This document shows positions 7,641 through 35,764 of a stretch of 35,808 nt of DNA, piece by piece. The position numbers and the translations under genes were made by a program. The stretch covers positions 1 through 35,808 of IMG/VR virus record IMGVR_UViG_3300025138_007237; one strand, given 5' to 3'. The notes beneath the pieces were generated by a model. The model worked only from the letters and a program-made list of their open reading frames with translations. It was not told the DNA's origin and searched no databases. Within the stretch, counting starts at the first letter, position 1. Every line of letters begins with the position of its first letter. The stretch is from a virus.

Positions 7641-9078
7641 ATGTTGCTAGTTCCTTATCAATATTCTTATTATTAGGGTTTAATATCCAACCTTCTTTTT
7701 CTGCAAGTTCCATAATACTTGAATCTGTATCAGGAATACTATCTACCCAATCAGTAAGTATTTTAGGAAATACATCTAAGCTTCTATGTCGACGTAAATC
7801 GTACTGTGCATAAAATGTTTTAAAGTCACGCCATAGTGTGGTAGGATTACTTGTGCGTCTATGCGGAGCATCTACAGTTACTAAGTAATCAATTAGTCTT
7901 TCAATACTTGCTTTCTCATGTTCGTGCCATAACTTTTTATGCTTATTTGTATTGTACCAATTGTTTAATTTATTATAACAATAGTCTTTTAGATGTACAG
8001 GTAATGCTAATGGACTTTGAAAACTCGGAAAACGTAGTAAGTTTAAACTAACTGTTGGTGTTTTTGTTCCTGTGCGTTCCTTTAGTGTATAAATTTGATC
8101 TAGAAATTCTGTGATACTAAACAAACACAAACTGTTAATAGTCATCATACAATGTAGCTCTACCTCAGTTTCATCTAAAATACGTGTTACATTATTCAAC
8201 CACATATCATAGTCTAATCCATCGCGAATATACTCTGCTTGATCGCCAACTGCTTCGCAACTAGTATAGATATGAAACTTTTTAATTCCTTGTGCTTTTT
8301 CTATTAACTTATCTATAATTTTATCTTTAGCAATTAAATTACTGTTAATAGCAAATCTCATATCAGACTTTTGTTTAGAATACCAATCAAATAATTTCCA
8401 AGTGTTTCCGCTCATTAACGGCTCTCCACCTGTAATACGCAACTCGTCTAAGCTATCCGCAAGACCGTTGTCCCACCATTTCCAAAATGCTTGTATATAA
8501 GGATTATCTTCATCATTATCATACGGAGCGGCCCAATCACCATTATGTTTAAAGGCACCAGCACCGTCACTAACTAAATTTTCATAAGGTCCGTGTTTAT
8601 TAATATCTTTTGCCCATGTAGTACTAAAACTAGCATTACAATAACTACATGCTAGATTGCAAACTCTATCAAATGCTATTTCAAATGTTTTAAGATTAGC
8701 ATTTTCATTCCAGTCAGCATCATATGCGGCTTGCAATTCTTCATCTGTATAGATGATAGTTTTAAAAGTTCGATCGCTTACTGCGTTCTTTTTCATATCT
8801 TCCATTTTCCAACAGTACTCGCACTCTGCTGGACGTTCGCCTACTAACATTTGCCTACGCATTTCTTTTTTATGCTTAGTATTATGAATAGCTGTATAAT
8901 TTTCTTCTACTTCTTCCAAAGGAATCTGATGTGCCGGCGGGTGGTGGCAACTAGCTGTTGTACCACTACCTAGCCAAGTCGTTGCATTAAACCATTTTGC
9001 TCCGCAAAAACTTGCACTTTTAGGATCTATTATACGTTGCCTATATTGCAGTAACGTTTCGTCTTGTTTAGCTGGCAT
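7633..9078 (-). CDS. N-terminal-twitch radical SAM protein, Cys-His-His type, 481 aa
   Basis: The ATG at 9078 has AGAGGA 5 bases upstream and an 11-bp overlap with the preceding gene. This is the longest copy. The cluster segment starts later than in the Cys-Cys type: Cys25, then CHHPPAH at 44-50 in place of Cys-Cys, then LEEVEEN, and Cys86-x2-Cys89 (ECEYCWKMED). The radical SAM motif CNLACSYC is at Cys140, 144 and 147, and GGEP at 217-220. An acidic insertion with DNDEDNPYIQAFWKWW (188-203) is shared with its sister at 9068-10438 and absent from the others. SAM-radical chemistry is implied by the motifs. Replacing a cluster Cys by His may change the auxiliary cluster or make it a different metal site. 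The substrate is unknown. Confidence 0.92.
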   Translation of the reverse strand: MPAKQDETLLQYRQRIIDPKSASFCGAKWFNATTWLGSGTTASCHHPPAHQIPLEEVEENYTAIHNTKHKKEMRRQMLVGERPAECEYCWKMEDMKKNAVSDRTFKTIIYTDEELQAAYDADWNENANLKTFEIAFDRVCNLACSYCNASFSTTWAKDINKHGPYENLVSDGAGAFKHNGDWAAPYDNDEDNPYIQAFWKWWDNGLADSLDELRITGGEPLMSGNTWKLFDWYSKQKSDMRFAINSNLIAKDKIIDKLIEKAQGIKKFHIYTSCEAVGDQAEYIRDGLDYDMWLNNVTRILDETEVELHCMMTINSLCLFSITEFLDQIYTLKERTGTKTPTVSLNLLRFPSFQSPLALPVHLKDYCYNKLNNWYNTNKHKKLWHEHEKASIERLIDYLVTVDAPHRRTSNPTTLWRDFKTFYAQYDLRRHRSLDVFPKILTDWVDSIPDTDSSIMELAEKEGWILNPNNKNIDKELATYD

Positions 9079-10438
9079 GCCAATCCTCTAATAATGTTGC
9101 GTACTCAGGAAAAGTATTTTTAAAATTTTTACCACGGCGTTTATCATATGCTACTATATATTCACAAAAATCTTTTCTGTATTCTACAGCTGACTTAGTG
9201 CTTCTTAAGTAATTACATAATCTTTTTATCTGGTCGAATTCTTCTAAGTACATCCTTGCATATTTTTCTTTACTATAGTATTTAAGCCAGGATTTGCAGG
9301 TGGTTTCGATTTCATCTGCATAGGATGTCCTTTGTTCTGTATCTAATAACGTAGTTTGCAAATGATGAGGCCATCTAAGATAGTTTATACTAAGAGGTAT
9401 TCTATTGTATTCAAAATTTAAATTATAATGTGTTCTAAGTTCCATTACATCTGCTATAAACTTACTAAAACTAGGTAAACTTAAAATATTAACTGTTGTC
9501 ATCATTGCTACGGTACTGTTAGTTTCATATAATATACGATTTACGTTAGCATACCAAGATCTATAATTCATGCCATCTCTTACATAATCATTTTGATCTC
9601 CTACTGCTTCTGCACTTGTGTATATGTCTAGTTTTTTTAACTTACCTTGAAGTTCGTTACAATAGTATACTAGCTTATCTATTAGTTTTGCAGGAACATT
9701 AAGATTTGTATTAACAGCAATTTCTAACTGAGGCTGAGGATTAGTGTTTATATACTCAAGTAACTTCCAAGTGTCTTTTGACATAGTTGGTTCGCCACCT
9801 GTAATTCGTAATACTTTAAGATGAGGAAGTGCATCAGGAAACCATTTCCAAAATGCAGTTACATAAGGATTATCTTCACTTTGTTTATAAGGAAATTTTC
9901 CTGTTTGCTTTAAATAATCTAAGTTATGCATACCGTTTGGATATTCTCCATTTTGTTTTATATCCTCCATCCACTTACTACTAATTTCAGGAGAACAATA
10001 CGCACATGCAAAGTTACACGCATTGCTAAAGCTAACTTCTAAGTAACTTGGGTAGATATTATCATCTGGATTACTTCCAGCAATGTCCTCAAATCTATCC
10101 CAGGCCCAGTAATCAGATGTTTTATAATGCCTATCCGAAAAATATTCTTTGTCTAAATCCTCAATCTTCCAACAATAGTCGCATTCTTTAGGACGTTCTC
10201 CGTTAAGCATCATAGCACGTTGTTGTTTTTTAAACTTACTATTATGTAATGCCGCAGGATCTACTTGTATTTCTTCTAGTGGAATTTTATGCGGTGCCGG
10301 ATGGTGGCAACTATGATTGTACCCATTTTGCAACAAAAGAGTTGTTTGTAGCCATTTAGCCGTACAGAAGCTACAACTAACAGAATTAATTAAATCCCGT
10401 TTTAGTTTTAATTCTTCAATACGTGCTTCATTACTCAT
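9068..10438 (-). CDS. N-terminal-twitch radical SAM protein, Cys-His-His type, 456 aa
   Basis: The ATG at 10438 overlaps the stop of the preceding glycosyltransferase by 4 bp (ATGA). No good ribosome binding site precedes it, so translation is probably coupled. It is the sister of the 481-aa protein: Cys25, CHHPAPH at 44-50 and Cys86-x2-Cys89 fall at identical residue numbers. The radical SAM motif CNFACAYC is at Cys141, 145 and 148, and GGEP at 214-217. The shared SEDNPYVTAFWKWF insertion precedes GGEP. The C-terminus ends with YDKRRGKNF....PE, the family tail. It is the first radical SAM gene reached from the promoter at 14.04 kb. The substrate is unknown. Confidence 0.92.
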   Translation of the reverse strand: MSNEARIEELKLKRDLINSVSCSFCTAKWLQTTLLLQNGYNHSCHHPAPHKIPLEEIQVDPAALHNSKFKKQQRAMMLNGERPKECDYCWKIEDLDKEYFSDRHYKTSDYWAWDRFEDIAGSNPDDNIYPSYLEVSFSNACNFACAYCSPEISSKWMEDIKQNGEYPNGMHNLDYLKQTGKFPYKQSEDNPYVTAFWKWFPDALPHLKVLRITGGEPTMSKDTWKLLEYINTNPQPQLEIAVNTNLNVPAKLIDKLVYYCNELQGKLKKLDIYTSAEAVGDQNDYVRDGMNYRSWYANVNRILYETNSTVAMMTTVNILSLPSFSKFIADVMELRTHYNLNFEYNRIPLSINYLRWPHHLQTTLLDTEQRTSYADEIETTCKSWLKYYSKEKYARMYLEEFDQIKRLCNYLRSTKSAVEYRKDFCEYIVAYDKRRGKNFKNTFPEYATLLEDWHAS

Positions 10439-14970: not shown

Positions 14971-14978
14971 TATTTATA
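14971..14978 (-). promoter_or_regulatory. T4-type late promoter, perfect TATAAATA
   Basis: TATAAATA on the minus strand lies 29 bases upstream of the ATG at 14941 and overlaps the last codon region of the 489-aa gene. It is an exact match to the T4 late promoter -10 element read by the phage sigma factor gp55. Confidence 0.7.
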
Positions 14979-16443
14979 CCTTTAGTACACACTCAATCAA
15001 TTTTTCTTCTTCTTCCGTACTAGACTCTAATGCAATACCAACTAGTCCGCTACTTGCAATAGTTGATCCTATACCATCTTGCCAAGCATAAATTGCTTGT
15101 CCTTTTGATACAACACCGCTTACTCTTACAGGAACACGCCCTTTAAGTGCTACTGCCTGGCCGTCAAGTGCTGAATTCATTAAATATGCCGGTTCAGCTG
15201 ATATAACACCTATTACATGATCACTAACTTTGGCTGGTCTTGTTTCTGCTTCTCCACCAACTGCCATAATTGTACCTACTACATGCTCTTCAGCAGTAGT
15301 GTACATTTCTGCTAAGTCAGCATACCGTGCTTGAGTTGCAATACCTTGGAATAAATTTGCTGTTAAGTTACCTGATGCATCTCTTAATGCGGCTGTGTTA
15401 GCTGTAGCACTTGCATCAGGTGCGTAAACAGAACCACTTAATTTTAATGAACTTGCACTAGTTGCATTACCTTGGAATGATGTTGCATAAACGTTTGCCC
15501 ATACATTGCCGGATGCACCAATATTAAATGTATTTGTACTTGCAGGTGTCATGCCTAATGCTGTAAATGTTGCAGAATGTATTTCAGCCCCTGCCGCATT
15601 TGCCGCTTTTATTTTAATAATACTATTAGTACCAACTTGGTTTGATATTACGCCGTCGTTACCATTCTCAATTTTAATAACTAAGTCATTACTATCACCT
15701 ACTGAAAGTCCTGCATCAGCAAAACGTACAACATCAGTAAATGCTCCTGCTGAACTTAGTAAGTAATCACTTGCTAAATTTCCGCCTAATCTTAATGCAT
15801 TAGATGCTGTTCCCCAATAAACATGATCGCTACTTGTTACACCATTAGTTGATGCAATAGTATTAATCATAGTAAGGCCTTGTTTAACTACGTCAAATCC
15901 TGTAATAGCATTTGAAGGATCTGTACTATCAATAGTAAATGCAATACTACTAATAATATATACAACTTCATCATTAATTGTTGCGGCAATAACACTTCTA
16001 TTTATTGAAGTAGTATCTTTAACTGTTCTACTTCTCATCTGTGTAACACCACTACCTGTACTTTGAGGTCCTACTAAGATAAATGACGTACCGTCAAATG
16101 CATATAATTGATTGTTTCCGCTGTCCCACCAAAAATCACCTGAAGTTAAACTAGTTGGCTGTGTTGCTGAAACTTCTGCGCCACCTGTATTTTTAAATCT
16201 AGTACCGTTATAAAACTTTAATTTTTGTACTGCACTATCATACCATACTTGTCCTGAAACAGCTTTAGGCGGTTGTGATGTTCCACTAAAGTTTTCTAAT
16301 AAGAATAAAAAGTTCTCGTTTTGTATTTCACCATATCCAGCATAGTTTTTACCAACAAACCGCAAATCGGAAGTTGCATCAACTGTACCATCTTGCACTG
16401 TAGCTAATGTTGCGCCGCTGTATCTATTAATTGTGTATGCCAT
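14974..16443 (-). CDS. Tail fibre-like protein with shared N-terminal module, 489 aa
   Basis: Residues about 1-125 form a module repeated in the next two proteins: YTIN start, FVGKNYAGYGEIQNENF, QVWYDS....LKFYNG, then GDFWWDSGNNQLYAFDG. The middle is a beta-rich shaft containing phrases such as NTFNIGASGNVWANVYATSF. Residues about 375-489 carry a C-terminal domain common in T4-like marine phages: ARYADLAEMY, VGTIMAVGG, HVIGVISAEPAYLMN, ALKGRVPVRVSG. That domain resembles the conserved end domain of many fibre proteins (peptidase G2-like or chaperone-like in some). No Ser/Asp/Lys autoproteolysis site can be assigned by eye. GAGG lies 10 bases upstream of the ATG, and a late promoter motif lies 26 bases away. 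It likely forms part of the tail fibre or baseplate appendage. Confidence 0.82.
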   Translation of the reverse strand: MAYTINRYSGATLATVQDGTVDATSDLRFVGKNYAGYGEIQNENFLFLLENFSGTSQPPKAVSGQVWYDSAVQKLKFYNGTRFKNTGGAEVSATQPTSLTSGDFWWDSGNNQLYAFDGTSFILVGPQSTGSGVTQMRSRTVKDTTSINRSVIAATINDEVVYIISSIAFTIDSTDPSNAITGFDVVKQGLTMINTIASTNGVTSSDHVYWGTASNALRLGGNLASDYLLSSAGAFTDVVRFADAGLSVGDSNDLVIKIENGNDGVISNQVGTNSIIKIKAANAAGAEIHSATFTALGMTPASTNTFNIGASGNVWANVYATSFQGNATSASSLKLSGSVYAPDASATANTAALRDASGNLTANLFQGIATQARYADLAEMYTTAEEHVVGTIMAVGGEAETRPAKVSDHVIGVISAEPAYLMNSALDGQAVALKGRVPVRVSGVVSKGQAIYAWQDGIGSTIASSGLVGIALESSTEEEEKLIECVLKV

Positions 16444-20965: not shown

Positions 20966-20973
20966 TATTTATT
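20966..20973 (-). promoter_or_regulatory. T4-type late promoter variant, AATAAATA
   Basis: AATAAATA on the minus strand lies 21 bases upstream of the ATG at 20944 and overlaps the stop region of the giant gene. It matches NATAAATA. Placement at a third start in the virion gene region makes chance less likely, although the sequence is AT-rich. Confidence 0.5.
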
Positions 20974-23900
20974 TGACTAGCTCGGTTACTTTCGTTCTAA
21001 TAAACCTCGCAATGTCATTTTCTTGTCTACTTAGGCTAGTTCCAGGATCTGTCCAGAGTTTACCTTTTTTACGCACTATAATAATCTTCTGATTCTCTAA
21101 CGGAGCAGTAGTAAGTGTTAAAGTACTAGTAGTACCATCTATACTAAACTCTGCCACACTAGTTGCATCACCTTCCGGACTGTCTAAGTCAGTAGCCGGA
21201 TTAAAGATTGATATAGCGTTCTTCCTCATACGCTTACCTGCAACAAATACTTCAAATTCATTTATACTTTTTGGTATAAAGTCTAGTTCGTAAGCAGTTG
21301 ATGTTCCGTCTGCTGTAAGTACTTGTGTAAGTGTTTCATCCATATAAGGAATATTTTGTCCAATACTCTGTTCTGTTACTGAGGATCCTGCTGGATAGGT
21401 TGTTTTAACTCCTGTACCTAACGTTCCTCTACGTATTTGTCTTAAAGTATTATTTTGTTTCACAAAGTATTCAATTCTTTCTCCATCAATAAACACTACT
21501 CCTGGTATTTTTGACGTTTTGTTAGGCGTTGGCAATTGACTTGCATCTAATAAATGTATTTTTAGATCTGACCAGTTAAGAGCCTGTGCTAACATATACT
21601 TATTCGAATCGTCCATACGCTTATAGTGAGTTCGGTTTAACATATCTTTAAACTGTCTAAATCCAAACTTTTGTAATGTTGGAGGAGCCGTAAAATGTAT
21701 TAACTCAACTGTATCATTAACACTAATTGGTTTTGTTATTTTAATATGGTTTTTATCTTCAGTAACATAATAATCTATTACTGATGTTAGCTGTACTCCA
21801 TTTAATACTACCCATACATATTTTGAATTATTAACTGGTTTACGTAACTTCACAAATCCGTTAGTTAATAGTGTATATTCTTGGAAATCTACTGTACCTT
21901 CTGATATTGAAGTTCTAGTAATAACATTATACTTAATACGCTCTATATCTTGGATATCGTGATTACTAAATGTAATTACTTCAACTGTTGCATCAAGAGC
22001 TGGAGCATTATCAAAATAGATTACTCCGGGAGTTGAGATAAACTTAGTTGAACTATCTGGTCCTGCTTCGATACCTACATACCCAAATGCATATTCGCCG
22101 TCTACTACTAAAAATATATCAAGTACTTGTCCTGCTGTTGATACACTAGGTACCATGTTAACTATATTACTAGATGAATCCCATTTATATTGAATGTTCC
22201 TTACCAACTTAATGCCATCTAAATAAACTTCAATATCTTCACCTCTAATGGTGTTAAGTCCTAATTGCCAGTTTTGTAATTGATATTGCAAAGAGCTTGT
22301 TATAATGTGTCTATCACTATATCCTGAATTTAATATAACTCCGTTAACTTTAACTATTGTTTGATTTGCAACAGGTGTGCTTCCTATTGGTGCTGTAGCC
22401 AACGTATAAGTTTTTGTACTTCCATCTGCTGTAAATGTTTGCGATGCAACTTGACTGAAATTTGTTCCTGTTGCATAAAATAATCCATAATCAATAACTG
22501 CATCTAGTGCAGGTGCTGTGTTAAATCTAATACCTGCATAGCCTTTATCAACTCCATAACTATCGCCTGCGGAGAAAATAGTGACTGACTGTGCAACTCC
22601 GTTAATATTAACAAAGTTTGTCATATTAGCTTGCCATTCTACATTAGTAATAAACTCTACTGAACTTCCATCACCTGTAAACTTATTAATATCCAGGATC
22701 TTCTGTCCTGCTTCTCCCAAAACTATTATATTCAGTAGTTTTCCTGTTACAGGCGCTGTTGTAAATGTAACAGTATTAGTTGTATAATTTATAGTATATG
22801 AACTTGGTGAAACTTTAGTATTATCAAGTCTTACAAATACTGCATCAGCTGAATTAGGATGTCCTCCTAAACTAAATGTATCTTTAGTACCATCAGTAAA
22901 ATATACATCACTATAAATTGTACTACCGCCATCAACTGCACGATGTACTACTTTTAAATCCATAGTATCTAATATTTGCCCAGTAACTAACTCTTCCGGA
23001 CCTTTGCTAGTAGTCGGTGTAACAAACAGGTCACCATCTACTACTATTTCAGAAGCCGCTATACCCCTAGCTGTATCATATAAAGTGGTGCCGCCATCAA
23101 GTAGTGTATCATAAGATGTAACATCAGGTTTAAAACTACCGTCACTAGTTGTTTTTCTTATTATAAACGTATCATCATTATTTGCAATAATTCCTAAATC
23201 TTGTAAATTTAATTCAGTTTGACCTGCACCTGTAATACTAAGCATCTTAGCATTTGGATTTGTTGCTTCACTTGAATCATTATAATAAGGATCATCAATT
23301 CTTACATTATTTTTATAAACGTTATAAGTAACTCCCGTTTGTAAAGCCGGTGACCATGTTAGTGTTGATGTTGACCCGTCTAATTGGAATATTATATCTT
23401 CATATGTATTATCATAAGTGTCAAATGTTTCTGTAAAGAACGGATCAGTATCCCAACCTGCACTACCTTCAAACCCAAAACTCTTAATTTCAACTCCGCC
23501 GTAATCAATACCTTCCATTAACTGCGAAATATCTTTACCTATCATACCCGTAGTAGGATTATAAAGTAAATTAATTCTATCCTGTGCATCTAGTAAGTTT
23601 GCATCTTTACTATATGTAACAGTTATTGCCGCTCCTGCTTTAGGCGGCGTAGTAAAATTAATTTGACCAATTTCTCTGTCATATCCTTTAGTAACGTCTT
23701 TAATATTTGTAAATGTATATTCACTTCTTAGTAACTCAATACCTGTTACAACTATTGTTGTATTTGTATTTTTTCTATCCATTGGCCATTTTAAATTGTA
23801 TCTAAATTGAGTTCCGGTTCCTGTGAATGTCTCTGTTGTAGCAAGTGTGGTAATATGATAATTTCCGCTAACTCTATCAAACTTAAATTTAACTGTAGTA

Positions 23901-26900
23901 CCTCTAGCTGTACCGTTTCCTAGAATAGCGGTTGCTCTACCAATCGTTCCTGTATCACTTAATCCGCCATCAAGTATAACTGTAGGAGCACTTAGATAAC
24001 CTTTACCAGAAGTTAGTACTTCAATTTTACTTAATTTTCCGTTATTTAGATAAGCCTTTGCTGTTGCACCTGAGCCGCTGTTACCCTCAAATTTAATTAC
24101 CGGTGGCAGGTTGTATAAAGTTCCTGTATGCCCAATTTCAACACTCTTAATTTCATATCCTACGTTTTCAAACCAATGTTTATCTGGATAGGATGTTACA
24201 TCACGTTGTCCAAAAATTACTTCATTAGCTACCTTAGCTGTTGATGCTTCGATTCTTGTTGTTTCTAAACTATACTTAGGAGGTAAATCAAAGTCTGATA
24301 CTGTAGTATTAGTTGGATCTACTTTTTCATATGAACTTACATATTCTCTAACTTTTGTCTTATAAGGCTTAACTTCATTAATGTATGTTTGATAACTTTC
24401 TAAGTTATCATTTTTAAATGTAACCTTTTGTGCTAACTCTCCTAAATTATGCTGTGCTTTAACAAAACTTGATTTAAATGCCCAATCAATATTTGGTTGT
24501 TCGCTAAATGCATATCTAATACTTGATAAGAATAATTTATTATATTCAACTTCTAGATTGTCAACAAAGATCTTATCTCTTAACGTTTCTAAAATTATTC
24601 TAGATTCAGTTACAGGCTGTGCATCAAAAAATACGGTATCGTAATTATTACTATCGAATCCTACTTTACTTTTTCCTACGTTATATAATGTCTCAGTAAA
24701 CATAATAGTCGCATCTTGCTTACCCACTGTTTTATAATTTACTGTATAGTCGTCTGTAACTGTATTATTAATTTTTTCTAATAATAACCATCCACCTGAT
24801 CCGATATTTGAAATCTTTACTATATCTCCTACATTATTGTTTAATCCTGATAGCAAATAACTTGCTGAAATTAAATCTGAAACTTGTGTAAAACTATTAT
24901 ATCCAGGAGCATACCAGTCTACATAATTCCAATAAAGATTTGTATCATATCTCTGACTTACACTCCTTACCCACTTAGTTCCTATAAGCTCATATATGCT
25001 CCATTTATTAGATACATTTGAGTCTGAACTAACTAGTGCTGAGAAAGGTCTAACCGTAAGTATAGTATTTGCATCGTATCCAGTACCTGCATTAAGAATA
25101 TTTACTGTAGCAATTTGTCCAAGTTCGTTTAGTGTGCATTCTATTTGTGCATCTTCACCTATGCCAGTAACTGTAATTTTTGGACCTTTTCTAGTACCAC
25201 TAGTGTAGGTAGAATCTATATAACCTCTGCCGGCATCTGTTATTAATATTTGAGTTATTGAGCCGTCTATCACTGTAGGTGTTAGTGTAGGAGTCTTTTT
25301 ATTTCCTATTCCGACAAATGCTACATCTTCCATTGTATCAGCTACTACATCATATAGTTGTGTACTAGTACTTGGTGCTGGATCACTTTTAACTAAGTTA
25401 CTAATATCAAACTCGTCAACGATTATATTCTTTTTTAGTACATCATTAGCTCTTTCAATAACTTGCTTTAACGCTTCTGCTTTGTTTATAAACAATCCTT
25501 GTCTAGGTCTATCCTGTATTCCGTATTTTAATTTAACACTTAATGCAGGATCAGGTACTAACCTGTCTTTAACATCATATCCAATTAAACTATCAAACCA
25601 CTTACGTTCAATATCTCTATTCGGTTTACTATTTGCAACACCTTGTGCAATCATTTGATATTCATTATGTATATTTTGATTTTTATTAGTAGTTGTCCAA
25701 TAGCGTATATTTAAAGCTATATTCTTATCTTCCATTAAAGGTGCTACATTATATAATGCAAGTCTATCTTTAGACATAAGTGCGGCAAATTTATATCCCG
25801 AACCTGCAGGATCTTTAATAAGTTGTTGTACAGCACTTGCACTTAAATTTCTAAAATCTACATTTGGTGTAGTTTTCTTATTCAATGTCCAAAAATAATA
25901 TTTTGTTGATGTTGAATTAGAAATCTTATCCCAAACTAATTGCTGACTATAAGCGGTATCACCATATTTTGATAATCCACTTATTCCTTGTGCTATACCT
26001 TCCTCAGTATCTGCTAAAGTGTCCCATTCACTTGGAAGTACATCTGACTCAACCCATTCCCATATTGCTATATCTGTTCCTGGAAATACTTCTGACCAAA
26101 AATTAGTTTGATATGTTATATCATTTTGATAATAATTGTAATACTTTACTGCACTTAGATCCCACCATAATTTACCAACTGTATCGCTTGTCCATCCGCC
26201 ATATGTGTCTACTACAACACTTGCATCTCCTATATTATAGGATGCAGGATCATAATATGTTTTAAAACTTAATTCTTGTTCTGCCGGTCCTGGAATTTTT
26301 CCTTGTACAGGATCAATTAAATCAATATCAGAAACAAGTGTATTAGTTTTTGTATTATATATAAATGCACCTTTAATATTAGATAAGTCAACCTGATCAA
26401 GTGGACTTCTATGTGTAACCCATGCAGTAGTACCAAGAAGTTTTCTATAATCAACTACCATACCTTGGTACGTATTATAATCTGTCATATGAGGCATACT
26501 AGCATAAACATGATTATTGCTTACTAATATATTTTTACCAAACATCATAGAATCTGAATCATCAAACATAAATTCTTCAGCGTATACTAACGTTTCGTTA
26601 ATTCTTTCGTAAGTGTAAATGACTCCACTATCCATCATTACTGTTTTAAACTTAGTAAATTTATTATCAAAGTAAGTAGTGTCTGAGTCGTATGTTGTTG
26701 GTTTATCGATATTACCTTGTAAAGATGTAATAGCTAAAACATTTCCATCAAATCCTAAAGCAGTACCAAACTGTTCAGCGACTTCATTATTGTGGCTAGT
26801 TAGCGTTTGAGATAATGCAAATGTTCCTGCTGTTTGCTTATAGATATAAACTTTACCTTGAGTACTTGCAACTGAACTATTATAAGGCTCTCCTATAGCA

Positions 26901-29900
26901 ATCAAAGTGCCGTCTGCACTAATTGATATTGCATCGCCGTATCCAGTAAGTGTATCAGTACTTACATCAGTATACGGTGCAGTAATAGTCTGAGATATAG
27001 TAAATTGTCCGTTAACCTGTCGATAAACGTTTACTGCTCTAGATCCTGTACTGTCATTACCTTGGATTTTGGTACTAGTAATTAGTACTTGTCCTAATTT
27101 ATCCTGATCAAACTTTCTAGCAAAGTCTCTAATTCCGCCTTGTGGTGTATAAATCCCTTCTCCTATAACTAATTGTTCCGGAGTACTTGGTATATACCCA
27201 ACATGCGTAGTAGTACTGGATAGCTTAGTCCAATTTGCTATAGTAAATACTGATCCGCTAGCGATATTTTGCTTTGCACTATATAACTCTTTATTGTATA
27301 CTACTATTTCATTTATTTTATAAAAAGTAGATATATTAAACTCGCCTCTAAACAACGGATTAATATCTAACTGCCAATCGTAATCTACAAAGGTGTCTCC
27401 TATAGTATTTTCACGTCCGTGTTTTATAAAATGTATACTACCTGGATTAGACTCTGTATTATTACCATTTGAAGCAATAGCAACTCTATACAAAATATTA
27501 ACTCCGACACCAGTTTGTGTTATTTGTAATTCATCGCCAAACTTTTTAAAATTTTCTCTTTCTGGAATAACGTAGGAATTGTTATGTTCAAATTGATTAA
27601 CTTCGCTTATTGAATAAACAGAGATCATACCTTCTTGTGTTAGTCCACTTCCTGTAGCATTAGAAGTATTGCTTGCAACTAAGTTATTAACTTGTCCCCA
27701 GTCATTATTATTACTAGAAGGAATGTTAGCACCCCTAGCGATACCCTGTAACGTAATTTCATTATAGATCCAATATTCTTTGTCTACTAGTTCTGTTGTT
27801 GCAACGTTAGCAAAGTTTGTTGCTTCTGTAATAATAAATATTTTACCAACAACAGATGTACCTAAGGATACAGCTTTAACTTCTCCCATAGTTCTATCTG
27901 GTGAGCCCTGTCTAATAATATCAGTAGTTTGACTCCAGTCATCACCTAAGCTCCATGTTCCTGTAACATTTTTTACGTAAATCCTTACATCGTTAAACTG
28001 TCTTTTATAAAACACAACCTCAGCAGTAGCACCCGATGATGAATCTCTAACTATACTACCAATTGCAGGTTCAAATGGTAACTGATTAAGTGTACTAAAG
28101 TTATCAAATACAAAGTCGATATATCCGTCCCATACATCAGCAATAGTATGTTGCTTATTAAGTATATCAAATGTAAATGCTGTACTTGTTAAATCAACTT
28201 GGCCGCTTTGATTATCAACCTTAAGATAGAAGTCATCACCTGTAGTCTTTGTATCTGAAAATGCTTTAGGAACTCTTATTGCCCACTGATTTGAAGGTTG
28301 TACTGCAAAAACTTCTCCAGGATCGCCTTCATATGTAAAACTTTCAATAAATGATATCTGATCATTTAAACTAGTTTTTGTTCCAATAGCTTGTATATTA
28401 TCTTGAATATTAAAATAATAGTTTGGTGTTCTAGCAGAACCTTGCTTAATAACATCTACATATATTAAACTATGTCCTGGATCTACAAATATGTTTGAAC
28501 TATCTGCTGATGTTTCGTATGCAGGTGTTGTTATCATCCAATATCCACCAACATTGCTTGAAGGATTTACATAGTCTTCTGTATAATCTCCTACAGTAAT
28601 ATCTTCTATGAATAACTGTCCGGTTGATGCAAATGTTCCATTAACATCTTTAACATAAACTATCGCCGATCCGTCTGCATCGCCAACATAAGCTACTGTA
28701 CCACTTGCAACTGCACTGTTTACCGTTTGTCCTACACCTGGTAAGTTTTGGAACGTTGCAATATGTAAAACATTTTCAACTTTATGTACAATAGGATGAG
28801 TAGCACTTAAAAATGTACCTGTTATCTGTGGGAATTCTCCATCAAACGGTTCAACACTAACGTTACTTCCTTGAATGTTTATGCTACTGTAATTATTCCA
28901 GTTTAGTACAATACTGTCTCCTGCCTGAGAGCCTTCATATGCTTGTTTAGGAGCTCTAACTAATAAGTGTGTTGTATTTGCTTTACTATTAAGTTTATAG
29001 TTGCCTGTTTGTAGTAAGTTAAGCAACGAACTATCAGTGTCTGTTACTATATCAGCATACGAATCAAAAGTAGTATACGGAATAGACCCAACTGCACCGT
29101 CAATAACTGCTATTGCTTTAAACAAGTTAGGACCATATTTTATTATATCATTTTTATTATAATTACTACCCTCAACATATTCTCCTTTAAATGCTGTCTT
29201 TACATTACTTGCATGCGGAGATCCAATAATTAAATATTTTCCGTCTGGACTAAACGAAAGGCTTTCACCAAACTTTTGTGATGTAATTTCTGTGCTTCCA
29301 TCATACGTATCAACATAGGTTGAAGGAGCACTAATTGTTTGATCAAATATTAAATTATTTGCATCACTAGAACGTTTGTAAATATGTACTTCTCCGTTTC
29401 CTTTATCAGGAATACCAACAGCTAATAATGTATTAGATTCGTTTACGGCAATACTATGTCCAAAATTATGTTGGGTACTATCTAAAGCAAGACTACTTTT
29501 AAGTGTTTGGGCTTGAGAATACACAGGAGAATTTTTAATAACTTTCCATTTACCTGTATCATCGTCATCAACCCAAATAACTTCTTTTGATTGTAAATCT
29601 TTAGTGCTAAGATTATTAGCTTCAGATAATGTAGTAACTCTTTGTGTTGCAAACTTTGTTATAATTCCATTTAGGTTAGTAAGTGATGATAATTTTTCCC
29701 AATCAGCAAGTTCTGATGTTAATTCAATCTTATTATTAAAAACATCAGTAATAGTATAAAATGCTTCTACTGTTGTTGCTGTTGTATCAGTGCCTACAAT
29801 TTGATCTATATTGTAAAGACCTATAATATCATTAATAGCAAGATTAACTGTCCTATCACAGTTAAGTGTAATAGTTTGAGCTTCCTGTGTTATTGATTGA

Positions 29901-32900
29901 ACTATTATATTGCTATCAATATGTTTTAGCACATCCCATGTTAGATCATCTGTTGCTACCCAGACGTATGATCCCTTGTCTAAATCGCTAGTAGCAAATC
30001 TCATTATTCCTGCAGGGGTCGAAACTGCTCTGTTAACGTCTTCGCCGGTAACATATCCTACTGTTTTTACATATTCATCATTCAAAAATTTTGTTGGAAG
30101 TCTATTTGTTTCATAATCTTTTGGCTTTAAAAATACATCATAATGCGGAATTCTATATGTCAAATCAGTTGATGCTGTTGGTAATACACTTACCAATTCA
30201 ATAGGCTGAGGTTCTAGTCTAAATTTAGATTCGTCTAATTGGTATTCAATTTCTTCAAACCCGTCACTTGCACCATATTGTGCTGACTTAATTGCCCACT
30301 CTTCAAAAAAGTCAACGCTATCTTTATCAGCACTTGCTAAACTATCAAATAACTTATCAATCGCATTCCTTGTACCCTTATCCGCTATCATCCCCTGATA
30401 AAATTTGTATTGACTTACTTCATCGTTAATAATATTTTCTAGATACTGCCTTTTTTGATAACCAATTAGATGTTGTGCCATTTTTTGTTGATCAGCATCA
30501 AAATTATCTGAATCAAGATCGTAGAAATCAGCAAACTGATTAATTTTATAATCAAAGTTTGGCATTAACTTTGGATTAGGCTTTTGTTCTAGACGTGCCC
30601 ATTTTAACGGATCAAATATTTCTGCGCCAGGTACATCACTATTAGCAGTATAATAAAATTCTTTGTACTTAACTATATCGCCTATAGAGAAGTCAGTCCA
30701 TTGTGTCCAGTTTAGTATTATAGCAGAATCAAATATAAATCCAGGAATATTTAAACTACCGTCCCAACCTGCGGCAACATATCCAAGTACTTTAATTCTT
30801 TCTTGCCTATAACCTGTAGCAGGACTATATATTACATCTTTAAATACTGAGCTATTATCTAAAACTATAACATGTTCAAGTTGTACTGTTGGAAGAACTA
30901 TGTGATACAATCCATCAGCAGTATTTTTAAGTTGTACAACAAAATTTCCTGAATCTCTATTAAGCCTTGTTAATTCTTCAGTTATTTTTTCTCCACTAGC
31001 ATTTAAAATGCTGTAATCATAAAAGCTATCATACAAATTATCAATAACTGAATACTTTGAATTAAATTCTAACTTTGTAGCGGAAGGACTAACTGATAAT
31101 ACTGTTCCGGCTGCCCAGTTCTGTGTTGTAAAATATAAAAATTCTTTTGTACTTAGTTTCCAGTCTTCAACAATTTGTAATTCTTTATTATAGTAATCAA
31201 ACTTAAATCCTACAGACTCTAAGTATTTTCCGTAACCAAGTAAGAAGTCAACAACATCCTGAATACTTTCAAGTAGTGTACCATAAGGAACAACAGTTCC
31301 TTTATTATCAAAAGACTTTCTATATACTGCGGTAACACCGCCAGTAGTAGGAAGTTCAACTAACGACTGGAAATTATTAGCATCAAATGAAGTAGTACTA
31401 GTGTGATTCTGTTTGACTCTATAGAATTTATTACTATCTCTAACATTAGTACCTACTAAGTACCTTTGTCCTGATGCCCACTCTAAAAACGATTCTGATA
31501 TACCACCAACATTAATATTTGGGTCGCTTATAGTTTGTTGTGGCTCGTTATATGTAAATGTTGGATTTGTAGTATCATATCCTCTAACTATAAATCCTTT
31601 TGTAGCTTTTTCAATCATTACACCGCTATAAGATGCTACTGACAACGGAGAACTTTTATTAAGAAAAATATTATAATTTTCTGCTGGAAGAAATACATTT
31701 CCTTTATTAAAAGGAGTTCTACTATCTAATATAAATTTTAACTTATCTTTATCAGTAAAAGATCCTAATTTAATACCTAACTGATTTTTAATTAATTTAA
31801 AACTTTCTTTATATGTTTCAAAATTTGTTGTTGCTTCGCCGTTTAGGTAGTCAACAATATAGTTAATTAATCCTGATGTATGTGTTTCTGTTGTATCTGT
31901 TATTAATGTAGGATAAACTAGGCTTTTTGACGATAATGCTGTACCTGATGTTTTGTATATCCACTGATTTGATAACGACTTTATCATTCTAGATGTGTCA
32001 AATCCTAATCCCATTACTTTATGAGGTTGATTTAGTACCCAAGACTTAATTAAACTAAACGGATATTCACCACTTCTTCTCCAAGCAGTTTCTGTCGGAG
32101 CTTCGTCTCCAAATTTAAAACTTGATGAAATATTAGGTGATACATAACCTGAACTATATCCAGCTTCTTGCGGACTTAAAAGTTGTCCACTTTCATTAAC
32201 AGGAATATTTTTAAGTAGATCTTTCCTCTTATACTTCTTAATAATTTCTATTGGTACTCCTGGTGATTTAACTCTGCCTTCTTGTAAATCTTCCCATAGA
32301 ACTAAATTGTCGCTTGTATATGGTGCTGATCCATATACAGACTCCCACCAAGTGGGCATTATTGTAAAGCCTAGCATCTCCCAAGGATGTGTATGAGGTC
32401 TATCTGTATCATACGCATTTTTATAAACAGCTCTCCAAAATCCTGGTAAGTTTTTATTATCTCGGGTTGACATGCCTGTATAATTCCATGTAAAACTATT
32501 AGATCTATCATAAAAACTACTACTACTGGTGTAATCAACACCCCCTAAACTTTCTGTCCATTGTACAAAGTCACGCATCATTGCCGAGTCAATCTGTACT
32601 TTACTAAACTTTGTATCTCTTCTTATACTAGGAATATAGTCATGTATATCTAATCTTGTAGTATCATATGTTGCTTTAATATTATTAAATATTCTTTTTT
32701 CTAATTCTAGTAATAACTGATCTCTATAATCCATATATGCTATTGTTTTACTACCGTCATGACCTTGTATTACTCTAGTAGTAGTTTGATAAGTGCTATC
32801 ATCAATTATCTCTGGATAATATGTAGGATATAATCCTAACTTACTAGGAGTTGGTGGAATATAACTACCGTCTGTATTTTCGTATTCATATATTTCAATT

Positions 32901-35764
32901 AAATCATCTTTGGCTTTTGTTGCTGTTATAACAGCAAATCCGTCTGTATTAAATGTGTAATCTTTATTATGTATTAATTGAATACCATTTTTATATATTA
33001 ATACTGCCTCTGAAGATAAAGAACTTAAACTATGTGCCTTACTTAAAGAAAAGAAGTTATTTTCTGTATCATATACAGAAAACTCTAAACGTTTAAATCC
33101 TTCTGAGGGGATCATATCACTAAAATAGTAAGGGTCTGTGTTTATTTTATTTTTACTAACTTCTTTTAATATTAAATCAACATGTTGTTTTATAGGTCCA
33201 TCATAACCTAATGTATCAGCAATCTGTATAAAGGATCTTTTAAATTTTCTATACTCTTTTCTAGCATAGTCAATTGCCTTAATTACGTTTGCATCTTTAT
33301 CAGTAGCATGATATACAGTAGTGTTAGGAGACCCTGCATATTGTAAAAATTTTCTACCATATGAAGATATATTACCTAGGTTTGCAAGATTACTTGGTCC
33401 CGGAAACATTCCTACAAATCCCGGTAAGTCTTCAATCATAGTATTAACATGATCGTTAACTTCTCCTAAAGTAAAAGTACTAAGATTTTCATTTTCTGGA
33501 TTCTTTTCCATTGAGTGTGGAAATTCGTAATATCCGTTAGCATTTTTAACTGTATCACTATTAGTCTTAATTATCACACTACTATTTGCAGGAATTGCTT
33601 TTGAAAATCTAACCGTCTTAAATCCATCGACATCTACAAGTGTATAATCAAATCTCCATTTATTATTAACTTGAACTGCACATTTTAAATCTGTTAGTGT
33701 ACTACTGTTATTATATACATCAATATTAAAATCTGTTTGGGCTGTAATAACATCATACTGTCTAATAACTTTTGAAATCGTATTTGTACTTGCTTTTTTC
33801 CATCCGTTGCAATAAGTAAAACTATCAATGTCTGTATATATTCTATAAAATCCTACATCACTATTTTTTAATAACGGAGTGTTATTAACCTGATAACTAA
33901 AACTATCAGTTACTAGATTAAAATCAAAAGTTATATCACCAACGTTTTCTAAAGCTCTATAAGTAATTGGAAACCCTAATTCAACATCGTTCTTTCCTGT
34001 CCCTACTTTATAGCTAAAAATTTTATTACCTGCAAAATTGCTTACTGGATATGTTGTAGAATCAGTAAAGCTAATTCCGTTGTTATCAAATAATTCAAAT
34101 AATGGTTGTTGGTTTATTTTTGTTTTAAGCTGAGCAACTTTCCAAGTAGTTCCATCGTAGTAATATTGCTTACCGGCATTAGTTCCTTTAGTAATTAATG
34201 CAACTTGATTAGTAATTGGTAACGTATCAGTTTCTTCAACTAATGCAATCTGTGATACAGTTGAATTATGTTTGATCATTTTAACTTTATAAATTCTATC
34301 TTTTACAAGTAAGTCTGGATCAGCTGTAAACAAAATACGCATATTATTAGTAACATCAACACCATCAATGTTATATCCTTCTCTACCATTTATAGTAGAA
34401 AATACATCAGTAGTAAAAGTATCAATTAGATCTACATTTTCGGCCTTTGCTTCTGTACCAAATTGATGTAATTTTATTCCTGCATTAAATTCAATAATAG
34501 GACGTTTTGCTCTTGCACTTTGATCGATATTGAATATCTGCCCGTTAAGTGATGCTGTTTTTTCAAGAACTGATTTATGAAACCATCTATTATTTCTAGT
34601 CCAAGCATTTTTATCAGGAGAACTTCTATTAATAACAACATAATCTTTAGTAGCGGCATATGAACTAGCAGTGCCGTATGGCAAGTTATCAAAATTATTT
34701 GCATCAAATAATACTTCTACATCTGCTGAATATGTTTGAGGTATTACTAAATCAGTATTTTTTATTAATATAATTTTATCGCCAACACCTTCAACATACC
34801 AAGATCCTGTTGCATATTTTTCAGGAGTAACTGTACCTGTAAAATTTAGCTTCATACCATTCATTAATTCGGTACCATTTGCTGAGGTATATGTTTTTTT
34901 ACCTAGTATATCAGTCGCAACATCAATAGATGTATTTGATTCAATTTCAGCAATTCTAAATGTTCCGCCTGTGTTAACATCGGTTTCTGCTACATAGTAT
35001 AGTCTGTCAGGTGCATTAATAGGAACAGTAAATGTAACTACACCATTATCAACACCAGAATTAGTAATACCAGTTGAATATTCATTATCGCTTTCGATCA
35101 ATCTTGAAGTTCTAATTGTAAACGGAAGACCTGGTGTGCTTACATCAAATATATAAGTTTGGCCTCTATATAATTCTAATGTAGGATTCTGTGCTAGGTT
35201 GCCGTTGAATGCATAACCTTTATTACCAGCATTGTCAATACTATTTACAGTATATGTACTTGTTACTTCATCAGACTGTCCAAAAATTGAAATTGGTGCT
35301 GGTCCGCTTGGTAGCCAATAGTATTCACGGAAGTTAGTAAGTTTATCCCAGTCTACACCCGAGTCCCATGCATAATATTCTTGGCTATTAAATAAACTTT
35401 CGTTAGAAGTAGTACCTCCTAATATATCAAGCTGATTTCTAAAATCGTTATAGTCTTTATAAAATGAAACGTTATTTAATAAATCCTTAGAAACTAATGC
35501 AGGTTCTAATTGGTAATTAGTTCTAGTAGTAGTTACATCACCTAAGTAATTATCGCTAGGACTATATGCAGGTGCTGTCTTTCTACCAAAATATCCGTTT
35601 AATTTTTTAGCTGTTCCCGGAGAAGTAATTTGATCAATTGTAGATCCTAAAAACTTTTCATTTGTGTCTGATCGGAAATATTTTGGTAATAATTCTGACG
35701 TTCTTCTTTTACCTGGTTTTCCATTAAATGGAAGTGGATAGTCTTTTTGATCATCGTACGCCAT
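20969..35764 (-). CDS. Giant virion structural protein, 4,931 aa
   Basis: One uninterrupted frame of 14.8 kb encodes a protein of roughly 540 kDa. The ATG at 35764 shares one base with the upstream stop. Domains seen in order: a conserved N-terminus (ESLFNSQEYYAWDSGVDWD near 120); a cupredoxin-like beta domain lacking the usual metal ligands (about 190-271); mixed helical regions (about 900-1400); short aromatic modules resembling CBM5/12 carbohydrate-binding units near 1428, 1685, 2193 and 2807; seven FG-GAP-like strands between about 2100 and 3107; two GxGY-type beta segments (about 3502-3572 and 3876-3934); and a C-terminal chain of DGST-type beta repeats (about 3976-4931). No signal peptide or enzyme motif was recognised. 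Very long structural genes are known near the tail region of marine T4-like phages. It is probably a tail or baseplate appendage that binds glycans. Confidence 0.85.
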   Translation of the reverse strand: MAYDDQKDYPLPFNGKPGKRRTSELLPKYFRSDTNEKFLGSTIDQITSPGTAKKLNGYFGRKTAPAYSPSDNYLGDVTTTRTNYQLEPALVSKDLLNNVSFYKDYNDFRNQLDILGGTTSNESLFNSQEYYAWDSGVDWDKLTNFREYYWLPSGPAPISIFGQSDEVTSTYTVNSIDNAGNKGYAFNGNLAQNPTLELYRGQTYIFDVSTPGLPFTIRTSRLIESDNEYSTGITNSGVDNGVVTFTVPINAPDRLYYVAETDVNTGGTFRIAEIESNTSIDVATDILGKKTYTSANGTELMNGMKLNFTGTVTPEKYATGSWYVEGVGDKIILIKNTDLVIPQTYSADVEVLFDANNFDNLPYGTASSYAATKDYVVINRSSPDKNAWTRNNRWFHKSVLEKTASLNGQIFNIDQSARAKRPIIEFNAGIKLHQFGTEAKAENVDLIDTFTTDVFSTINGREGYNIDGVDVTNNMRILFTADPDLLVKDRIYKVKMIKHNSTVSQIALVEETDTLPITNQVALITKGTNAGKQYYYDGTTWKVAQLKTKINQQPLFELFDNNGISFTDSTTYPVSNFAGNKIFSYKVGTGKNDVELGFPITYRALENVGDITFDFNLVTDSFSYQVNNTPLLKNSDVGFYRIYTDIDSFTYCNGWKKASTNTISKVIRQYDVITAQTDFNIDVYNNSSTLTDLKCAVQVNNKWRFDYTLVDVDGFKTVRFSKAIPANSSVIIKTNSDTVKNANGYYEFPHSMEKNPENENLSTFTLGEVNDHVNTMIEDLPGFVGMFPGPSNLANLGNISSYGRKFLQYAGSPNTTVYHATDKDANVIKAIDYARKEYRKFKRSFIQIADTLGYDGPIKQHVDLILKEVSKNKINTDPYYFSDMIPSEGFKRLEFSVYDTENNFFSLSKAHSLSSLSSEAVLIYKNGIQLIHNKDYTFNTDGFAVITATKAKDDLIEIYEYENTDGSYIPPTPSKLGLYPTYYPEIIDDSTYQTTTRVIQGHDGSKTIAYMDYRDQLLLELEKRIFNNIKATYDTTRLDIHDYIPSIRRDTKFSKVQIDSAMMRDFVQWTESLGGVDYTSSSSFYDRSNSFTWNYTGMSTRDNKNLPGFWRAVYKNAYDTDRPHTHPWEMLGFTIMPTWWESVYGSAPYTSDNLVLWEDLQEGRVKSPGVPIEIIKKYKRKDLLKNIPVNESGQLLSPQEAGYSSGYVSPNISSSFKFGDEAPTETAWRRSGEYPFSLIKSWVLNQPHKVMGLGFDTSRMIKSLSNQWIYKTSGTALSSKSLVYPTLITDTTETHTSGLINYIVDYLNGEATTNFETYKESFKLIKNQLGIKLGSFTDKDKLKFILDSRTPFNKGNVFLPAENYNIFLNKSSPLSVASYSGVMIEKATKGFIVRGYDTTNPTFTYNEPQQTISDPNINVGGISESFLEWASGQRYLVGTNVRDSNKFYRVKQNHTSTTSFDANNFQSLVELPTTGGVTAVYRKSFDNKGTVVPYGTLLESIQDVVDFLLGYGKYLESVGFKFDYYNKELQIVEDWKLSTKEFLYFTTQNWAAGTVLSVSPSATKLEFNSKYSVIDNLYDSFYDYSILNASGEKITEELTRLNRDSGNFVVQLKNTADGLYHIVLPTVQLEHVIVLDNSSVFKDVIYSPATGYRQERIKVLGYVAAGWDGSLNIPGFIFDSAIILNWTQWTDFSIGDIVKYKEFYYTANSDVPGAEIFDPLKWARLEQKPNPKLMPNFDYKINQFADFYDLDSDNFDADQQKMAQHLIGYQKRQYLENIINDEVSQYKFYQGMIADKGTRNAIDKLFDSLASADKDSVDFFEEWAIKSAQYGASDGFEEIEYQLDESKFRLEPQPIELVSVLPTASTDLTYRIPHYDVFLKPKDYETNRLPTKFLNDEYVKTVGYVTGEDVNRAVSTPAGIMRFATSDLDKGSYVWVATDDLTWDVLKHIDSNIIVQSITQEAQTITLNCDRTVNLAINDIIGLYNIDQIVGTDTTATTVEAFYTITDVFNNKIELTSELADWEKLSSLTNLNGIITKFATQRVTTLSEANNLSTKDLQSKEVIWVDDDDTGKWKVIKNSPVYSQAQTLKSSLALDSTQHNFGHSIAVNESNTLLAVGIPDKGNGEVHIYKRSSDANNLIFDQTISAPSTYVDTYDGSTEITSQKFGESLSFSPDGKYLIIGSPHASNVKTAFKGEYVEGSNYNKNDIIKYGPNLFKAIAVIDGAVGSIPYTTFDSYADIVTDTDSSLLNLLQTGNYKLNSKANTTHLLVRAPKQAYEGSQAGDSIVLNWNNYSSINIQGSNVSVEPFDGEFPQITGTFLSATHPIVHKVENVLHIATFQNLPGVGQTVNSAVASGTVAYVGDADGSAIVYVKDVNGTFASTGQLFIEDITVGDYTEDYVNPSSNVGGYWMITTPAYETSADSSNIFVDPGHSLIYVDVIKQGSARTPNYYFNIQDNIQAIGTKTSLNDQISFIESFTYEGDPGEVFAVQPSNQWAIRVPKAFSDTKTTGDDFYLKVDNQSGQVDLTSTAFTFDILNKQHTIADVWDGYIDFVFDNFSTLNQLPFEPAIGSIVRDSSSGATAEVVFYKRQFNDVRIYVKNVTGTWSLGDDWSQTTDIIRQGSPDRTMGEVKAVSLGTSVVGKIFIITEATNFANVATTELVDKEYWIYNEITLQGIARGANIPSSNNNDWGQVNNLVASNTSNATGSGLTQEGMISVYSISEVNQFEHNNSYVIPERENFKKFGDELQITQTGVGVNILYRVAIASNGNNTESNPGSIHFIKHGRENTIGDTFVDYDWQLDINPLFRGEFNISTFYKINEIVVYNKELYSAKQNIASGSVFTIANWTKLSSTTTHVGYIPSTPEQLVIGEGIYTPQGGIRDFARKFDQDKLGQVLITSTKIQGNDSTGSRAVNVYRQVNGQFTISQTITAPYTDVSTDTLTGYGDAISISADGTLIAIGEPYNSSVASTQGKVYIYKQTAGTFALSQTLTSHNNEVAEQFGTALGFDGNVLAITSLQGNIDKPTTYDSDTTYFDNKFTKFKTVMMDSGVIYTYERINETLVYAEEFMFDDSDSMMFGKNILVSNNHVYASMPHMTDYNTYQGMVVDYRKLLGTTAWVTHRSPLDQVDLSNIKGAFIYNTKTNTLVSDIDLIDPVQGKIPGPAEQELSFKTYYDPASYNIGDASVVVDTYGGWTSDTVGKLWWDLSAVKYYNYYQNDITYQTNFWSEVFPGTDIAIWEWVESDVLPSEWDTLADTEEGIAQGISGLSKYGDTAYSQQLVWDKISNSTSTKYYFWTLNKKTTPNVDFRNLSASAVQQLIKDPAGSGYKFAALMSKDRLALYNVAPLMEDKNIALNIRYWTTTNKNQNIHNEYQMIAQGVANSKPNRDIERKWFDSLIGYDVKDRLVPDPALSVKLKYGIQDRPRQGLFINKAEALKQVIERANDVLKKNIIVDEFDISNLVKSDPAPSTSTQLYDVVADTMEDVAFVGIGNKKTPTLTPTVIDGSITQILITDAGRGYIDSTYTSGTRKGPKITVTGIGEDAQIECTLNELGQIATVNILNAGTGYDANTILTVRPFSALVSSDSNVSNKWSIYELIGTKWVRSVSQRYDTNLYWNYVDWYAPGYNSFTQVSDLISASYLLSGLNNNVGDIVKISNIGSGGWLLLEKINNTVTDDYTVNYKTVGKQDATIMFTETLYNVGKSKVGFDSNNYDTVFFDAQPVTESRIILETLRDKIFVDNLEVEYNKLFLSSIRYAFSEQPNIDWAFKSSFVKAQHNLGELAQKVTFKNDNLESYQTYINEVKPYKTKVREYVSSYEKVDPTNTTVSDFDLPPKYSLETTRIEASTAKVANEVIFGQRDVTSYPDKHWFENVGYEIKSVEIGHTGTLYNLPPVIKFEGNSGSGATAKAYLNNGKLSKIEVLTSGKGYLSAPTVILDGGLSDTGTIGRATAILGNGTARGTTVKFKFDRVSGNYHITTLATTETFTGTGTQFRYNLKWPMDRKNTNTTIVVTGIELLRSEYTFTNIKDVTKGYDREIGQINFTTPPKAGAAITVTYSKDANLLDAQDRINLLYNPTTGMIGKDISQLMEGIDYGGVEIKSFGFEGSAGWDTDPFFTETFDTYDNTYEDIIFQLDGSTSTLTWSPALQTGVTYNVYKNNVRIDDPYYNDSSEATNPNAKMLSITGAGQTELNLQDLGIIANNDDTFIIRKTTSDGSFKPDVTSYDTLLDGGTTLYDTARGIAASEIVVDGDLFVTPTTSKGPEELVTGQILDTMDLKVVHRAVDGGSTIYSDVYFTDGTKDTFSLGGHPNSADAVFVRLDNTKVSPSSYTINYTTNTVTFTTAPVTGKLLNIIVLGEAGQKILDINKFTGDGSSVEFITNVEWQANMTNFVNINGVAQSVTIFSAGDSYGVDKGYAGIRFNTAPALDAVIDYGLFYATGTNFSQVASQTFTADGSTKTYTLATAPIGSTPVANQTIVKVNGVILNSGYSDRHIITSSLQYQLQNWQLGLNTIRGEDIEVYLDGIKLVRNIQYKWDSSSNIVNMVPSVSTAGQVLDIFLVVDGEYAFGYVGIEAGPDSSTKFISTPGVIYFDNAPALDATVEVITFSNHDIQDIERIKYNVITRTSISEGTVDFQEYTLLTNGFVKLRKPVNNSKYVWVVLNGVQLTSVIDYYVTEDKNHIKITKPISVNDTVELIHFTAPPTLQKFGFRQFKDMLNRTHYKRMDDSNKYMLAQALNWSDLKIHLLDASQLPTPNKTSKIPGVVFIDGERIEYFVKQNNTLRQIRRGTLGTGVKTTYPAGSSVTEQSIGQNIPYMDETLTQVLTADGTSTAYELDFIPKSINEFEVFVAGKRMRKNAISIFNPATDLDSPEGDATSVAEFSIDGTTSTLTLTTAPLENQKIIIVRKKGKLWTDPGTSLSRQENDIARFIRTKVTELVK

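Follow-up and report, generated by a model that had tools for sequence, protein, structure and literature searches.

The locus described here raises the question of how seven FG-GAP-like motifs, separated by a long stretch of other sequence, can belong together within one giant protein, and what such an arrangement may do for a phage. It lies in IMG/VR record IMGVR_UViG_3300025138_007237, an uncultured virus record whose 35,808 nucleotides are hereafter referred to as the window, and is a single minus-strand open reading frame (ORF) that spans 20969-35764 and comprises 4,931 codons, in which the codon of residue i is given by 35764-3(i-1). The record may be of marine origin, as the sample series of its relatives suggests. 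The best overall explanation, to which we assign a probability of about 0.72, is a seven-bladed FG-GAP propeller that is nested in a phage backbone, carries an insert of its own, and acts as an adhesin platform. The architecture taken separately (a seven-bladed FG-GAP propeller, nested and with an insert) is very probable, while a role as a host-surface adhesin platform at the baseplate stands at even odds. The features of the giant, with residues numbered along the protein and carbohydrate-binding modules abbreviated as CBMs, are as follows:

20969..35764, minus: giant virion structural protein, 4,931 aa, of the phrog_10938 family
26435..29518, minus: entire propeller (residues 2083-3110), set into the backbone between residues 2082 and 3111
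29498..29518, minus: D-like strand before blade 1, residues 2083-2089 (YSQAQTL), a strand in both predicted models
29285..29476, minus: blade 1, residues 2097-2160 (profiles and model strands)
29192..29284, minus: first half of blade 2 (strands A and B), residues 2161-2191, matching A-B of blade 5 at E 1.4e-14
27656..29191, minus: long insert of 512 aa (residues 2192-2703) occupying the blade-2 B-C loop, from the MAFFT alignment with relative L136
29045..29191, minus: CBM_5_12-like module opening the insert, residues 2192-2240 (family CBM profile, 14.3 bits at 2190-2219)
28571..28861, minus: insert repeat copy 1, residues 2302-2398
27938..28225, minus: insert repeat copy 2, residues 2514-2609
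27554..27655, minus: second half of blade 2 (strands C and D), residues 2704-2737; 2705-2740 matches C-D of blade 5 at E 4e-6
27365..27553, minus: blade 3, residues 2738-2800 (profiles and model)
27185..27364, minus: second CBM_5_12-like module (residues 2801-2860), located in the D-A loop that links blade 3 to blade 4 (family CBM profile, 72 bits)
26957..27148, minus: blade 4, residues 2873-2936 (profiles and model)
26783..26956, minus: blade 5, residues 2937-2994, the best FG-GAP_2 match
26555..26782, minus: blade 6, residues 2995-3070 (profiles and model)
26435..26554, minus: blade 7 (strands A-C), residues 3071-3110 (profiles and model), the weakest blade

As judged from sequence profiles, the seven FG-GAP-type repeats of the giant are not due to chance. 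We built one profile per blade from 77 relatives in IMG/VR and compared all pairs, and found that blades 1, 2, 4, and 5 matched one another strongly (E 2e-7 to 3e-17; blades 2 and 5, 3e-17; 4 and 5, 2e-16; 1 and 5, 4e-15; 1 and 2, 2e-11), with moderate matches for blades 3 and 6 and a weak one for blade 7 (blades 5 and 6, 4e-7; 1 and 3, 8e-7; 5 and 7, 1e-4). The Pfam family FG-GAP_2 (PF14312) was matched by all 23 relatives scanned (best 6.6e-16), and L136, a relative with an uninterrupted propeller, reached 66.4 bits; the propeller region of the window alone scored 28.4 bits (cut-off 23), and the whole protein only 19.4 bits against the same cut-off. Where the initial annotation had listed seven FG motifs, FG or YG was found at 2101, 2165, 2742, 2941 (as GYGD), 2999, and 3075, whereas the motif placed at 2889 adjoins a B strand, the A strand of that blade (DFARKF) lying near 2878. 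A plain regular expression (FG...A[VI]G.P...G.V.[IV]Y) recovered two of the seven repeats, compared with 0.28 in the shuffled protein, and was replaced by the profiles. Searches by tblastn with the window's propeller region against 50,697 phage records gave no match, and a relative's propeller copy gave Phosso gp108 as its sole match. A PDB sequence search with the window's propeller alone returned nothing usable, and the profiles returned weak integrin matches (E 0.008-0.08) together with matches to a 50S L21 profile, which were judged to be chance. Kinship with T4 gp7 is not claimed, one relative having matched Gp7_5th at E 0.02 and a full-length scan having found nothing.

A scan with the backbone of phage PA5oct yielded 57 loci. 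In 29 of these, the same backbone site holds a propeller in which the insert profile finds no match and which aligns unbroken with the L136 propeller across its 544 columns; the same seven repeats fall within about 440 contiguous residues in these uninterrupted relatives. The existence of such insertion-free versions of the propeller backs the original proposal, in which a long insertion divides an integrin-like, seven-bladed FG-GAP propeller. The insert profile found no match in the L136 group, and the divergent lineages L186, L132, and L185 are also without the insert. A MAFFT alignment of both kinds of relatives, L136 included, placed all 512 aa of the window insert, and the 504-533 extra residues across the window clade, at one position, which follows column 132 of L136 and lies within the B-C loop of blade 2 (the early columns of L133 are unreliable in this alignment because its fragment was cut too short). 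In the same B-C loop, L158, L172, L175, L176, L178, and L179 carry ~57 extra residues, which are covered by the CBM-like profile.

The long insertion thus does split the propeller, but inside blade 2 and not between blades 2 and 3 as had been suggested, and it measures 512 aa instead of ~550 residues. We place it between strands B and C because residues 2705-2740 alone match C-D of blade 5; this segment outscored all 43 windows (36 residues each) across the insert, and when residues 2161-2192 are stitched to 2708-2737, the result is a whole blade whose match to blade 5 spans 55 columns. The two repeat copies within the insert match each other in profile comparison (E 3e-10). CBM-like modules had also been assigned to the insertion, and a weaker one does open it (2190-2219), whereas the clearest one (2801-2860) lies between blades 3 and 4. 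This clearest module matched phage tail fibre 9rkv in a PDB profile search (E 1.5e-6) and matched the insert-opening module at E 1e-14. No origin of the insert was found among the other phage proteins searched, its profile matching the giants only.

Comparison with cultured phages indicates that residues 2083-3110 are themselves a whole-propeller insertion in a backbone common to jumbo phages, a point that the initial annotation lacked. The window giant matches the phrog_10938 "virion structural protein" backbone (E 0, 1,026 bits), and PA5oct, RaK2, SCTP-2, Atu_ph07, and Phosso have in common residues 1 to about 1,880 and a block from about 3,103 on. Identity to the giants of cultured jumbo phages is about 24-34% over ~1,850 N-terminal residues and the block from 3111, while inside the propeller none of the 57 matching cultured-phage records has a match. 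Joining the profiles of residues 2061-2082 and 3111-3168 gained 23.8 bits over the right half alone across five propeller-free phages, compared with at most 6.1 bits (mean 0.4) for 49 control joins, and the segment after 3111 (W-x-x-x-R ... vD ... iK.a.iYn) is conserved in propeller-free phages and is therefore backbone. The phrog_10938 giants of PA5oct and of RaK2-like, CBB-like, and rhizobial jumbo phages share this backbone and the same baseplate neighbourhood, but have no propeller at the site. The architecture is nested (backbone, then propeller, then insert), because the backbone of cultured relatives is continuous across the junction and the propeller of other relatives is without the insert. 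The giants of Atu_ph07 and Phosso (L127 and L129) have a different, internally repetitive sequence of ~1,500 aa immediately upstream of the empty site, and this part of the backbone may thus often take up modules.

The loops of the propeller suggest what it may do. Loop lengths were counted from the MAFFT alignment with boundaries set by DSSP on predicted models; hmmalign was dropped, as it failed to span the insert and put blades 1-2 in the wrong place. Across the 77 relatives, single A-B and C-D loops are at most 15 aa, and summed over seven blades the A-B loops reach at most 30 residues and the C-D loops at most 47. The longest B-C loops are 595 residues (blade 2), 245 (blade 6, in L005), and 93 (blade 7), and the longest D-A loops 95 and 70. 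Propeller topology places the B-C and D-A loops on one face, where integrins bind ligand and carry alpha-I, so every large expansion would lie on a single face of the propeller. The length-invariant opposite face (A-B and C-D) is as expected if it faces the backbone. In L005 (9992-13981), ~200 extra residues with a CBM-like stretch occupy the blade-6 B-C loop, an independent expansion on the same face. Under the adhesin reading, the propeller would be a closed and rigid base, anchored on its lower face by its two adjacent ends, and its upper face would display carbohydrate-binding-like and other beta-rich modules toward the host surface, and binding range could change by loop swaps with the baseplate undisturbed.

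The main rival holds that the propeller and its insert are structural, bracing baseplate or tail parts against one another and binding no host molecule. In its favour, the insert does not vary more than the B-C, C-D, and D-A loops (mean entropy 2.02 bits vs 2.01-2.34), and its length is steady in the rows compared (504-533 aa). We nevertheless consider it unlikely, given the CBM_5_12-like modules, the one-sided expansion, and the cultured relatives that lack the whole block and still assemble virions.

We then turn to the closure of the propeller. Structure prediction over residues ~2050-3150, the check first put forward for this locus, gave seven A-B-C-D sheets: the AlphaFold2 model of residues 2051-3168 (1,118 aa, 77 sequences) had a predicted local distance difference test (pLDDT) score of 86 and a predicted template-modelling score (pTM) of 0.70, and DSSP assigned 28 strands, 7 x (A, B, C, D) in order. 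In BFVD, the top match to this model was an FG-GAP protein from an uncultured phage, and giant-virus proteins were also among the matches. The L136 model (uninterrupted, 544 aa) had a pTM of 0.83 and 28 strands; its best 50 PDB matches were all integrin alpha heads (E 1e-13), and it superposed end to end on a 444-aa integrin head with a template-modelling score (TM) of 0.66 and a root-mean-square deviation (rmsd) of 6 A. Prediction thus gives a closed ring for L136, from which closure of the window's own propeller may be inferred. In integrin propellers an N-terminal strand closes the ring; here the outer strand of blade 7 is probably supplied by residues 2083-2089, because the segment after 3111 is backbone, and these residues are in weak but consistent register with the D strands of blades 1, 4, and 5. 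That the propeller ends meet at one backbone site also fits a closed ring. Eight blades or another closure, with the 2062-2089 strands and the C-terminal hairpin 3133-3147 forming an extra blade, would account for the three strands before blade 1 and the hairpin after blade 7 in both models. This seems improbable to us, since the sequence from ~3111 on, and less so 2061-2082, is kept in propeller-free phages and both are therefore backbone, and the best structural matches are seven-bladed.

A tree of the backbone next to the propeller bears on the order of gains. All insert-bearing proteins form one group (Shimodaira-Hasegawa-like approximate likelihood ratio test, SH-aLRT, 99), propeller-free phages group apart (support 98), and the uninterrupted and CBM-only lineages fall outside the insert group. 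If the propeller-free phages are taken as outgroup, the propeller would have been gained first and the 512-aa insert once, later. We give only a slim chance to the converse, an ancestral insert lost by L136-type relatives: the root is uncertain and long branches meet, which leaves it some room, but the insert-bearing proteins are a single group, the L136 group, L186 with L132, and the L175 group have no insert or only a CBM-sized piece, and B-C loops are short in ordinary FG-GAP propellers. L029 appears uninterrupted in the tree because an in-frame stop splits its ORF. One such stop each (TAG and TGA) was seen in the otherwise intact ~5,000-codon giants of L003 (12839-12841) and L029 (11945-11947), and may be a sequencing error, a pseudogene, or readthrough.

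Several points weigh against the preferred reading of a nested propeller serving as an adhesin platform. Blade 7 is the poorest blade, with a best E of 1e-4. The CBM family 5/12 model (PF02839) scored 14.4 bits in the window region against a cut-off of 26.2, with relatives reaching 3.5e-10, and the modules are called CBM-like because those of the window fall below the Pfam cut-off. The window model had integrin-alpha heads as its top PDB matches (E 4e-8), but with a TM of 0.35-0.39 and an rmsd of ~12 A, which we read as the alignment running through the 512-aa insert. The tree is a quick maximum-likelihood one with long branches and an arbitrary root, no calcium motif (DxDxDG, DxNxDG, or a looser form) was found in residues 2081-3115, and the loop-bearing face could instead contact other virion proteins. 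That the seven motifs belong to separate, unrelated beta-domains with no single propeller, the outcome that would have refuted the original proposal, is highly improbable: the poor fit of the window model to known propellers and the divergence of blades 3, 6, and 7 speak for it, but the repeats of uninterrupted relatives are contiguous, their model corresponds to whole integrin heads, and each half of blade 2 matches blade 5.

The genomic setting is that of a baseplate region. The PA5oct homologue is annotated as "virion structural protein", ESI-MS/MS (electrospray ionization tandem mass spectrometry), and is marked as MS-detected; its gene adjoins a baseplate wedge gene and has a tail-fibre gene nearby. 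In L004 the upstream gene encodes a baseplate wedge subunit (E 1.9e-303), and in the window fibre-like genes lie downstream. Presence of the giant in the virion is suggested by the PA5oct annotation. Two more CBM_5_12-like modules lie in the backbone of the giant (residues 1428-1467 and 1686-1727; window 30584-31483, minus). Elsewhere in the window, 14974-16443 (minus) encodes a tail-fibre-like protein with a C-terminal Peptidase_G2/intramolecular-chaperone autocleavage domain (PF11962, 28.3 bits), and downstream of the tail-fibre genes six radical-SAM proteins are clustered at 1961-10438 (minus; PF04055, some also bearing SPASM, PF13186), and ORFs resembling glycosyltransferases lie close by. 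The cluster might, for example, modify the fibres or a surface.

An interrupted propeller had been expected to be unusual in a tail protein, which it is, although the design itself has a precedent in integrins, where the ~200-aa alpha-I domain sits between blades 2 and 3 (PMC3791550) as a vWFA domain (PMC3791550, PMC12422189). The giant and integrin alpha heads with alpha-I (alphaX, alphaL) have in common a seven-bladed FG-GAP propeller, a domain inserted at or beside blade 2, on the face that binds ligand, and the existence of insert-free relatives. In contrast, the phage insert is 512 aa, beta-rich, CBM-led, and inside blade 2 (B-C loop), and the giant has no thigh or calf domain, membrane anchor, or beta subunit, its flanks being phage virion backbone (phrog_10938). 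Pfam scans of the giant and its propeller region found no vWA domain and no other integrin domain. The phage protein is not an integrin, given these absences, that of a calcium motif, and the different loop; the likeness is one of fold and design, and homology beyond the FG-GAP repeats is left unclaimed.

Among phage proteins, phiKZ gp131C (PDB 4GBF) is described in PMC4901313 as a propeller of seven blades located at the edge of a jumbo-myophage baseplate, and is proposed to bind a receptor or act as an enzyme. As described there, it is alike in being a seven-bladed propeller in the baseplate region of a jumbo phage, but its propeller is the C-terminal domain of a separate protein and not part of a giant backbone; no sequence match to it was found. 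The phi11 receptor-binding protein Gp45 has a propeller for host recognition at the baseplate (PMC4901313), but is five-bladed, trimeric, and of a siphophage, with no nested insert described. Kelch-type propeller proteins occur in CBB, one of them in the virion (PMC5259590). Gp108 of Sinorhizobium phage Phosso (L130) is a large protein whose examined part matches the window propeller profile in 14 stretches (4e-71), and it possibly holds several propellers in tandem; it shares FG-GAP-type repeats with the window, but is a separate protein elsewhere in the genome and not the giant backbone. No description of this arrangement was found in open-access papers.

We tentatively suggest that phages may have independently reached the integrin solution, a seven-bladed FG-GAP platform whose upper face takes whole binding domains. 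In this view, growth steps survive at one loop (none, a ~57-aa CBM-like module, a 512-aa composite), and a baseplate backbone acquired the propeller in one piece. Most arguments on how a folded domain can admit a large second domain and stay intact rely on endpoints. In this family the empty backbone, the propeller alone, the form with one small module, and the form with the 512-residue insert all exist at present, which would allow each step to be rebuilt and measured. Should the insert face bind hosts, it would mark where a large group of uncultured phages holds its host-range determinants, and the family, if this suggestion is true, would preserve in nature the steps by which nested insertion of domains produced a host-binding device.

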